A stretch of 64,000 nt of DNA, taken from the NCBI RefSeq assembly GCF_000177235.2, contig NC_014829.1:2666001-2730000 (forward strand). The letters are read 5' to 3'. Source of the stretch: Evansella cellulosilytica DSM 2522. GTDB lineage: Bacteria > Bacillota > Bacilli > Bacillales > Salisediminibacteriaceae. Of this stretch, positions 53,205 to 54,962 are shown one piece after another. Both the position numbers and the translations under genes were made by a program. The notes beneath the pieces are model-generated. The model saw nothing but the letters and a program-made list of their open reading frames with translations, did not search any database and was not told the DNA's origin. Positions within the stretch are counted from its first letter, which is position 1, and each line of letters begins with the position of its first letter.

Positions 53205-53750
53205 CTAGTTAACTACCCCAAAATCAGAAATTGGCCAAAATACAATATTTGCCTTTCCAACAATTTCTTCATAAGGAATAACACCGATATGTCTACTATC
53301 TTTGCTATGTTGTCGATTATCACCTAATACAAAAACATGTCCATCCGGAATAACATCATAACCATAATCTTCCTCAAGATTGAAATCACCAGTAAAAGGA
53401 AGTCTTGTTGCTTCTTTTTTAAATTCATCTAAGTACGGCTCTTCAACAGCTTGTCCATTAATATAAAGTACATCATTCTCATAATATAAAGTGTCCCCTG
53501 GTAGACCTATTACTCTTTTTATATAATCTTTATTTTGAGGGGCATGAAACACCACTATATCAAAGCGATCTGGTTCGCCAATGGTATAACTTATTTTGTT
53601 AACAATCATTCGATCATTGTGGCCTAACGTAGGCATCATCGATTGACCATCTACAACTATTGGTGCAAAAAAGAAGTATCGGATTACAACTGCTAGTAAC
53701 AAAGCTACAACTACTGCTTTAACCCATTCCCAAGATTCTGATTTAGCCAT
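53205..53750 (-). CDS. lepB: Type I signal peptidase
   Basis: This membrane-anchored protease removes signal peptides from exported proteins. An N-terminal membrane helix (about residues 10-28) is followed by the Ser-Lys dyad Ser37 (DGQSMMPTL) and Lys78 (YIKRVIGLPGD), plus GDNRQHSKDSRHIG. The 181 residues fit the Gram-positive SipS/T class. A candidate extended -10 promoter lies upstream. Confidence 0.95.
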   Translation of the reverse strand: MAKSESWEWVKAVVVALLLAVVIRYFFFAPIVVDGQSMMPTLGHNDRMIVNKISYTIGEPDRFDIVVFHAPQNKDYIKRVIGLPGDTLYYENDVLYINGQAVEEPYLDEFKKEATRLPFTGDFNLEEDYGYDVIPDGHVFVLGDNRQHSKDSRHIGVIPYEEIVGKANIVFWPISDFGVVN

Positions 53751-53827
53751 TACGTATATCCTCCACCAATCATCAAAATCAAAAATAATAATCTCTAAAA
53801 GCTTTTCTACTTATTTCGTGTATGATT

Positions 53828-53833
53828 ATTCTA
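53828..53833 (-). promoter_or_regulatory. Candidate extended -10 promoter of lepB
   Basis: TAGAAT preceded by TGT forms an extended -10 element about 80 bp upstream of lepB. No good -35 box is seen 16-18 bp upstream, so this is tentative. Confidence 0.35.
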
Positions 53834-53947
53834 ACATATAATTCCCTTTTTTACTTATTCCATTTATGTATTTATTCAGTACAAATAGTATAGGATTGTT
53901 TTTGTTCAGGAATGACTACACTCCCAACTAGATTCTTTAACTACTCG

Positions 53948-54322
53948 CGTGTCATTGGCCTCGTATGACACGTATTATTTCAGTTATTGTGCTCTCTCGT
54001 GTGTCATTGACCTCGTATGACACGTCTTATTTCAGTTCTTCAGCTTTCTTGCGTGTCATTGCTCCCGTATGACACATCTTATTTCAATTTTTCAGATTTC
54101 TCGCGTGTCATTGATCCCGTATGACGCATCTTATTTCAATTCTTCAGCTTTCTCGCGTGTCATTGATCCCGTATGACGCATCTTATTTCAATTCTTCAGC
54201 TTTCTCGCGTGTCATTGACCCCGTATGACACGTCTTATTTCGGTTTTTCCGCTTTCTCGCGTGTCATTGACCCCGTATGACACGTCTTATTTCGGTTTTT
54301 CCGCTTTCTCGCGTGTCTTTGT
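53948..54322. repeat. 52-bp tandem repeat array (seven units plus a partial eighth)
   Basis: Units begin at 53948, 54000, 54052, 54104, 54156, 54208 and 54260, an exact 52-bp spacing; a partial copy starts at 54312. Each unit carries an inverted repeat CGTGTCAT-N9-ATGACACG (arms partly eroded in units 2 to 5) and a T-rich half. Units 4 and 5 are identical, as are 6 and 7, which indicates recent duplication. 52 is not a multiple of three, and no gene spans it. Confidence 0.95.
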
Positions 54323-54420
54323 ATTCGACTATCGAGAGAACATAAATAGCTTGTCTTTACCTTACTTTTAGTAATCTTTATTCAAAAGCAGCAACTATGG
54401 TGGCTTCTATTTAGTTATAA
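54323..54420. other. Remainder of the lepB-rplS gap without recognised genes
   Basis: Together with 53751-53947 and 54460-54569 this is the rest of the 870-bp gap. I see no coding sequence, tRNA or promoter pointing to a gene here, only AT-rich DNA between the repeat array and the two hairpins. Confidence 0.6.
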
Positions 54421-54459
54421 GGTGACTCAACAGGTTAGGAACCACCCTTTTAAGTCACC
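54421..54459. repeat. GACTCA-family hairpin, degenerate copy
   Basis: GGTGACT and AGTCACC arms enclose an inner GGTT-AGG-AACC stem. It aligns with the rplS hairpin 110 bp away and with the sucD hairpin, so it looks like a duplicated or dispersed element that here has no adjacent gene end. Confidence 0.55.
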
Positions 54460-54569
54460 CTATACCTGTTAAAATGGTTGAAAATTACTCTATTGATTTT
54501 TAAATGGTTCTAACACAATTGTATGTACTGATTATTTCTATGAAAATAAGTTCCGTCATAAGACTAGAA

Positions 54570-54608
54570 GGGTGACTCATTAGGTAATATTCACCTTTTG
54601 AGTCACCC
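54570..54608 (-). terminator. GACTCA-armed hairpin after rplS
   Basis: A perfect 10-bp outer stem (GGGTGACTCA/TGAGTCACCC) with an inner GGT/ACC pair lies 12 bp past the rplS stop. The trailing TTCTAGTCTT is only moderately T-rich. It is probably the rplS terminator. Confidence 0.65.
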
Positions 54609-54620
54609 TCCCTTTGTTTA

Positions 54621-54962
54621 TTATCTTTCTTTAATACGAGCCGCTTTACCGCGAAGATCACGTAAGTAATAAAGCTTCGCACGACGTACTTTACCGCGGC
54701 GAGATACTTCAATTTTATCAATACGTGGTGAATGAACTGGGAATGTACGTTCAACACCAACACCGTATGATACCTTACGAACAGTGAACGTTTCACTAAT
54801 TCCAGATCCTTTTAGTTTAATAACTACCCCTTCGAAAACCTGAATACGCTCACGAGTACCCTCAACAACTTTAACGTGTACTTTAACCGTATCCCCAGGA
54901 CGGAATGCTGGAAGATCTGATTTTAATTGATCCTTCGTAATTTCACGAATAATATGTTCCAT
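54621..54962 (-). CDS. rplS: 50S ribosomal protein L19
   Basis: L19 lies at the subunit interface. The 113-residue protein begins [18 protein letters not shown] and has [22 protein letters not shown] and [20 protein letters not shown]. The ATG at 54960-54962 follows GGAGG; an in-frame upstream extension is in the leader. It has its own promoter and leader. Confidence 0.97.

Follow-up and report, generated by a model that had tools for sequence, protein, structure and literature searches.

The window is a 64-kb stretch of the genome of Evansella cellulosilytica DSM 2522 (a single contig of 4,681,672 bp, here G000). TRF found a single tandem array in this window, with 7.3 copies of a 52-bp unit, 91% matches and 0% indels. 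The array lies between two minus-strand genes, which we take to be rplS and lepB, following the original prediction. The position between these genes, as originally predicted, was borne out. The positions of the features are collected in Table 1.

Table 1. Features in and around the 52-bp array (positions in the 64-kb window).
Feature	Position	Strand	Remarks
52-bp tandem array, 7.3 units	53944..54321	-	TRF period 52, 0% indels; leading-strand sense via GC skew
Array unit, leading-strand sense (= minus strand of the window)			AAAGCTGAAGAACTGAAATAAGACGTGTCATACGGGGTCAATGACACGCGAG
Unit 1 stem-loop	53948..53972	.	Perfect 8-bp arms, 9-bp loop
Unit 2 stem-loop	54000..54024	.	Arms with one departure
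Unit 3 stem-loop	54052..54076	.	Arms with one departure
Unit 4 stem-loop	54104..54128	.	Two departures; unit 4 = unit 5 in sequence
Unit 5 stem-loop	54156..54180	.	Two departures
Unit 6 stem-loop	54208..54232	.	Arms perfect; unit 6 = unit 7 in sequence
Unit 7 stem-loop	54260..54284	.	Arms perfect
lepB-like signal peptidase gene	53205..53750	-	ORF call; downstream of the array at a distance of about 194 bp
rplS coding part, 113 aa	54624..54962	-	ORF call; upstream neighbour of the array
Imperfect hairpin AGGGTGACTCA.../...TGAGTCACCCT	54569..54609	.	3' of rplS, outside the array

The palindrome-bearing segment gave seven matches in exact 52-bp steps (starts in Table 1), against a maximum of 0 stepped matches in 100 dinucleotide shuffles, which together with the TRF result bore out the predicted seven units of exact period. 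The 8-bp inverted repeat with a 9-bp spacer had been claimed for each unit; it is perfect in units 1, 6 and 7, and units 2-5 carry one or two departures in the arms. The two pairs of identical units (4-5 and 6-7) were found as described. Their linkers are identical as well and the whole 52-bp unit repeats, so the spacers do not differ as they would in a CRISPR, again in line with the original prediction. The consensus stem of the array scored 8, compared with a maximum of 6 in 60 shuffles. As single-stranded DNA the array folds on either strand (-7.5 and -7.1 kcal/mol; z of -3.4 and -4.1).

On its rplS side, the array is separated from the gene by two GGTGACTCA hairpins. These two related imperfect hairpins (GGTGACTCA...TGAGTCACC) lie at 54421-54461 and 54569-54609 of the window, 148-150 bp apart. 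Between the rplS match and the next open frame (at least 120 aa) lay 873 nt here, compared with 75-469 nt in 18 relatives, among which the 8 of the same genus had 158-469 nt. TRF analysis of the rplS loci of 29 relatives revealed no repeat with a period of 20 or more. The longer gap and the repeat-free loci of the relatives indicate that the array is special to its own species or strain among those examined. An Rfam search of the window at 53700-54700 gave nothing above the curated score; two weak microRNA-model matches lay outside the array and far below the gathering scores, and no terminator-like site was found in the same interval.

The stem pattern (at most 3 mismatches) occurred 73 times in G000, compared with 0 times in the 8 other genomes of the genus. 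A doubled-unit search of G000 gave 108 matches at E<=10, the last few being chance-like. The unit recurred in arrays with unchanged spacing and not as the ordinary scattered single copies that had been named as the case against a special site. The main family in G000 occupied at least 24 loci, comprising 28 arrays and their neighbours. Two main subfamilies with a common centre, CGTGTCAT-N9-ATGACACG and (in leading-strand sense) GGTCATCAT-N9-ATGCTACCC, share the core TCATA-N7-CnATG and adjoin at several places. The 28 array consensuses, a set that omits three main-family arrays (18854, 2556152 and 2730988), aligned over 52 columns without gaps, and the core columns were invariant or nearly so. 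The ends of the arrays in this set were scattered over the phases of the unit, with no fixed end, and a fixed end as the sign of a cut site was rejected for that reason.

At 7 of the 10 16S genes, an array starts about 3.6 kb past the gene end on the 23S/5S side (3' side of the rRNA operon); the placement was read from the 16S genes, and the rRNA operon would be expected to end there. No neighbour gene was recurrent, the top family accounting for 3 of the 81 flanking proteins scanned (of 106 listed). The repeat had no match in plasmid and phage collections. The stem pattern was found in 2 of 59 other genomes, with one chance-like 3-mismatch match each, and was rejected there. Over 84,980 species genomes, a set possibly leaving out the window's genome and very near ones, it gave one chance-like match, in Alteromonadaceae. 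The pattern of the second subfamily gave 24 matches in the 8 other genomes of the genus, all with 3 mismatches, scattered and forming no arrays; a reversed control pattern gave 7.

To estimate how frequent such arrays are, 20-kb stretches were picked regardless of repeats, except that those of G000 avoided the targeted loci. TRF analysis showed 10 period-52 arrays in 54 stretches of G000 (1077 kb; 0.42% of bases), 20 arrays of period 51 or 52 in 20 stretches of G002 (400 kb; 3.95%), and 7 arrays in 20 stretches of G004 (0.69%). Scaled to the genome, these counts correspond to about 43, 244 and 86 arrays, respectively; the G000 values (0.42%, about 43 arrays) are biased low because the spaced stretches were set away from the targeted loci. 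When the targeted stretches (281 kb) were added to the 54 spaced ones, the count for G000 came to 40 arrays (period 52 or 104), distributed over 33 loci, so that the array counts are not all independent. Period 52 was also found at two loci of G006 (2.1 and 4.6 copies), and G003 had matches stepped by 52 among the matches listed. The genomes G001, G005, G007 and G008, probed only with the units of other species, had no match among those listed. Ten TRF stretches each of G016 and G009, from other genera of the family (400 kb in all), had no such arrays. A satellite-like kind of repeat is therefore present in five species of the genus (G000, G002, G003, G004 and G006). An assembly artefact is an unlikely source of the window array, since the genome is one contig and the same period occurs in other genomes of the genus. 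A literature search, lying mostly outside subscription papers, turned up no account of such arrays.

The unit length was nearly constant. Spacings were counted in 58 of the 65 arrays, the seven whose consensus had a different length being omitted, with units at least 30 bp apart and a consensus match of at least 62%. Of 550 spacings, 532 were exactly 52, the others being 51 (6), 53 (5), 56 (2), 79 (1) and 103-105 (4). A stricter unit fit, which covered spacings of 48 to 77 only, gave exactly 52 in 543 of 560. In the 51-bp arrays, 61 of 62 spacings were exactly 51. The G002 sample (L175-L194) contained six period-51 arrays alongside 14 of period 52; period 51 may have arisen when a unit changed by one base and the change became fixed in some families.

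The sequences of the units were diverse. Comparison of 57 units in all rotations and on both strands gave 12 single-linkage families at an identity of at least 30/52, the null maximum being 29 in 1500 trials; this set held no G003 unit and omitted 12 of the 65 period-51/52 arrays, whose consensus was not 52 letters long. One family in this comparison spanned two species, joining the array at 494293 of G000 with a G002 family (up to 32/52). The remaining cross-species pairs reached at most 29/52, which is near chance. Among the matches listed, a G004 family was common to G003, and the repeat sequences were otherwise species-specific. The near-chance similarity between species, one family pair excepted, would not support inheritance of the length from one ancestor. 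These results showed that the arrays are a satellite-like kind of repeat, with many families of unrelated sequence, one length (52 bp; 51 bp in one set) and an A-rich linker. Of the 67 arrays with a period of 51, 52 or 104, 10 overlapped a long open frame according to a simple ORF caller (at least 80 aa), which also supplied the gene contexts given below.

Period 52 is the main but not the sole one; other recurring periods were 91, 101, 116 and 82. A 116-bp unit with hairpins formed two G000 arrays, L085:520-872 and L127:1-437 (294519 and 1680000), whose units appeared related by eye. In G004, the stretches L156, L158, L159, L165 and L167 contained arrays of periods 101, 82 and 185 as well as degenerate 21-bp arrays with TTGTTGCGA-like motifs. 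Arrays of 21/42 bp were found also in G016 and G009.

The consensus stem was examined in the 65 arrays of period 51 or 52. It was matched by at most 3 of 60 shuffles in 24 arrays and by none in 18; nearly all second-subfamily arrays of G000, and several first-subfamily ones, had a poor consensus stem. A clear stem-loop is thus present in only part of the families. Where it was clear, it was conserved: among the arrays that scored 7 or more for the stem and had 6 units or more (19 in all; 4 from G000, 14 from G002 and 1 from G004), conservation was 95.5% in the arms, 86.1% in the loops and 87.2% in the linkers (p 2e-5 and 4e-4). The arms exceeded the loops in 18 of these arrays and the linkers in 17.

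In the 28 consensuses, 77.2% of the cells of the 8-pair stem were paired, compared with 68.3% after shuffling, and 25 cells were double-changed, compared with 13.7. The covariation score was 0.253, against 0.119 in shuffles (sd 0.020; 0 of 500 reached it) and at most 0.113 for slid stems; two of five covariation measures (pairs changed on both sides; further pair types) did not exceed the shuffles. As the signal came largely from two subfamilies, it represents few independent events. It is also a signal between arrays and not within them, since 7 double stem changes were found within arrays, compared with 272 broken pairs. Among the stem departures, G-T (81) outnumbered A-C (49), leaning to one strand, which mutation bias could explain equally well.

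The arrays were oriented with respect to replication. The GC skew of G000 changes sign at about 2.40-2.48 Mb; the locus at 2455 kb lies at this change and was counted as past it. The purine-rich strand coincided with the leading strand in 36 of the 40 G000 arrays, in 7 of 7 of G004 and in 15 of 20 of G002. Other intergenic segments had a purine share of 0.51-0.53, and in G000 their A skew was 0.03, compared with 0.32 in the arrays. The strand of the families pointed the same way: 21 of 24 G000 loci were consistent with the leading rule (14 of 17 when the rRNA loci were left out, p 0.013). Among the matches listed, the same held for 17 of 17 G004 clusters, not counting the 4492-kb cluster because the terminus is not finely placed; for 18 of 19 in G003, where the switch points were fitted and not placed by skew; and for 15 of 19 and 12 of 18 (the latter p 0.24) in two G002 families. 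The orientation rule holds strongly in G000 and G004 and probably in G003; in G002 it is weak to moderate. The observation made in the window was confirmed, and the recurrence over the genus and the replication orientation lie beyond the view of one window.

Two motifs were considered as general content of the arrays and rejected. The motif GAGAAGGG, presumably of SpoIIIE type, occurred 7 times on the leading and 0 times on the lagging strand in 39.5 kb of arrays, which is too few; the remaining stretches (2118 kb) had 68 leading and 11 lagging. AGCGG, which we take to be a Chi-type motif, occurred 70 times on the leading and 26 times on the lagging strand and was likewise not general.

Where both neighbour genes were head-on to the fork, the purine-rich strand was leading in 6 of 6 arrays of G000 and 6 of 6 of G002, G004 having no such context; in these 12 contexts it is antisense to both neighbours. 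This result, the presence of arrays in all gene contexts, and the Rfam and terminator results given above argue against an element acting at the RNA level, such as a terminator or mRNA stabiliser at 3' ends. Many arrays do come after a gene or an rRNA operon; even so, such a function is very improbable.

Several arrays had two-unit (104-bp) higher-order periods with 95-96% matches. Together with the identical unit pairs, these agree with the array expansion in the original prediction as far as tandem amplification in general is concerned. Mean unit identity within 42 arrays was about 0.85 at each distance from 1 to 6 (0.848 at distance 1 and 0.851 at 6; in-register fit, p 0.20). Because identity does not fall with distance, stepwise one-unit slippage was not supported. 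A fall had appeared under fixed stepping; it came from loss of register and was gone with the in-register fit.

The same data bear on plain minisatellites, in which an inherited 52-bp repeat would change by unequal recombination or slippage and the hairpin and the fork would be irrelevant. Such a process would be consistent with the identical neighbouring units of the window array, the two-unit periods, and sequences that are species-specific except for one family common to G003 and G004 among the matches listed. It is opposed by the conservation of the arms above the rest of the unit, the covariation between arrays, the replication orientation, and an A skew that is absent from other intergenic DNA of G000, and plain minisatellites are accordingly judged quite unlikely.

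Arrays of functional sites were considered as a further explanation. A 52-bp step, which corresponds to five helical turns of 10.4 bp, would place the sites on one face of the helix, where they could serve chromosome organisation, supercoiling or segregation, and the families would track changes of a binding protein. The five turns had been proposed originally and the arithmetic holds for 52, but most other palindromic periods of the genus (91, 101, 116 and 143) do not fit whole turns, 116 being close to 11. The constraint on arms and spacing, the near-invariant core columns of the 28 consensuses, the replication-strand orientation and the arrays past 16S genes, where the rRNA operon should end, are consistent with functional sites. 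The unrelated families within one genome would, however, need several proteins, and no neighbour gene recurs, so that this explanation appears rather unlikely. For the special protein-binding site of the original prediction, some constraint on the arms was found, but a single sequence-specific protein cannot account for the shared length of unrelated families. The choice between binding site and minisatellite, as it was posed, is an interpretation that was partly supported.

The arrays might also be REP/BIME-like and owe their mobility to a REP-associated tyrosine (RAYT) transposase that acts on single-stranded DNA of the lagging-strand template. Y1_Tnp genes were found in 9 of 9 genomes of the genus, compared with 5 of 14 control genomes. 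In G000, a 91-bp palindromic array is preceded, about 212 bp away, by a RAYT-like gene (L150:3361-3936), and a 143-bp unit is similar (77% over 79 nt) to sequence flanking a Y1 gene of G006. Such a transposase would also fit the tandem REP arrays of Pseudomonas fluorescens SBW25, which are forward near 2 Mb and reverse near 4 Mb (PMC3116915), and the lagging-strand template as the site of IS200/IS605 transposase action (PMC6006769). At 20 Y1 loci (L215-L234, at most about 1.5 kb per side), however, no 52-bp consensus of G000, G002 or G004 was found at E<0.01, and the three Y1 proteins of G000 scored 49, 70 and 76 bits, below the REP_Tyr_transpos cut-off of 80. Mobilisation of the 52-bp class by a RAYT is thus considered unlikely. 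A Y1 gene with an internal stop does occur about 1.2 kb away from one 52-bp array (G006, L220). The 91-bp array itself has 16.5 copies with AACCCGGGTT palindromes (L150:4149-5652; together with the RAYT-like gene, G000 4383360-4385651), and its unit recurs at three further sampled loci (878785, 1527390 and 3762033).

The explanation tentatively preferred is that these satellite-like repeats spread at the replication fork in the form of hairpin DNA and that register keeps their length. The hairpin-prone unit, and a strand that follows the fork and not transcription, point to copying or movement of single-stranded DNA on the lagging-strand template; the identical neighbours and two-unit periods point to duplication of blocks of units. 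A fork-driven satellite without a named enzyme is preferred because of the absence of a 52-bp consensus at the 20 Y1 loci. Single-stranded, hairpin-prone DNA exposed on the lagging-strand template would be the form in which the unit is amplified and moved, by template switching or by a step resembling transposition of single-stranded DNA. One to a few units would be duplicated as a block to lengthen an array, and existing arrays would seed new loci. Well-folding units would be copied more, which would retain the stem. Only units in register would be duplicated or homogenised, so that the 52-bp step would be inherited and the sequence would drift fast. Counting against this fork-driven spread are a stem that is not universal, scattered array ends, the weak orientation in one G002 family, and the lack of an enzyme tied to the 52-bp class.

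A ruler is a possible but doubtful version: a fork process of the genus would make or keep the 52-bp step whatever the sequence, with length, strand and partly the palindrome set and the sequence free. The constant length could also come from such a ruler or from selection for five helical turns. Any advantage for the host, such as a putative role as chromosome landmarks, would be secondary.

It is a common view that bacterial genomes purge satellite-like DNA. Here, dozens to perhaps hundreds of arrays per genome have one length, unrelated sequences and a replication-linked orientation, and they look like a fast-evolving bacterial counterpart of satellite DNA. They offer a tractable system for asking how the length of a repeat stays conserved when its sequence does not, and whether the amplification of hairpin DNA on the lagging-strand template is self-driven. 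If the arrays vary between strains, they might serve as strain-typing markers.

Eukaryotic satellite DNA has a constant monomer length and a fast turnover of sequence between species, and the 52-bp arrays resemble it in both. They are likewise tandem and mostly non-coding, and the likeness is one of functional analogy. They differ in lying on a bacterial chromosome, as many short arrays of partly hairpin-prone units with a replication-strand orientation. CRISPR arrays share the regular palindromic repeat and the segment of fixed length; here, however, the segments between the palindromes are themselves repeats, and in the window array they do not differ from unit to unit in the manner of spacers.

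Similar to the 52-bp arrays in being dispersed non-coding repeats of a Bacillaceae genome are bcr1 and further MITE-like repeats, which PMC3733652 describes as elements bearing terminal inverted repeats and not as arrays of fixed step. A MITE would have terminal inverted repeats and a target duplication at discrete ends; the phases at which the 52-bp arrays end were scattered.

The 52-bp arrays resemble REP/BIME/REPIN arrays with RAYT (TnpA_REP), such as the tandem REP arrays GI-GIII of P. fluorescens SBW25 (PMC3116915), in being mostly intergenic, in part palindromic, head-to-tail and opposite in orientation at two places of the chromosome. As for the many copies of a palindromic intergenic unit that are typical of REPs, the copies here were many, a clear stem was present in 24 of 65 arrays, and 10 of 67 overlapped a long frame. 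A GTAG or CGTC tag at one stem foot is a further REP/RAYT feature (PMC3733652). No cognate RAYT flanked by the unit was found for the 52-bp class at the 20 Y1 loci (E<0.01), and the SBW25 arrays have a step of 184 bp (112 + 72). The arrays described here differ further in having one unit length over unrelated families and in making up as much as about 4% of a genome sample. By analogy, the 52-bp class may work like REP tandem arrays or satellite DNA.
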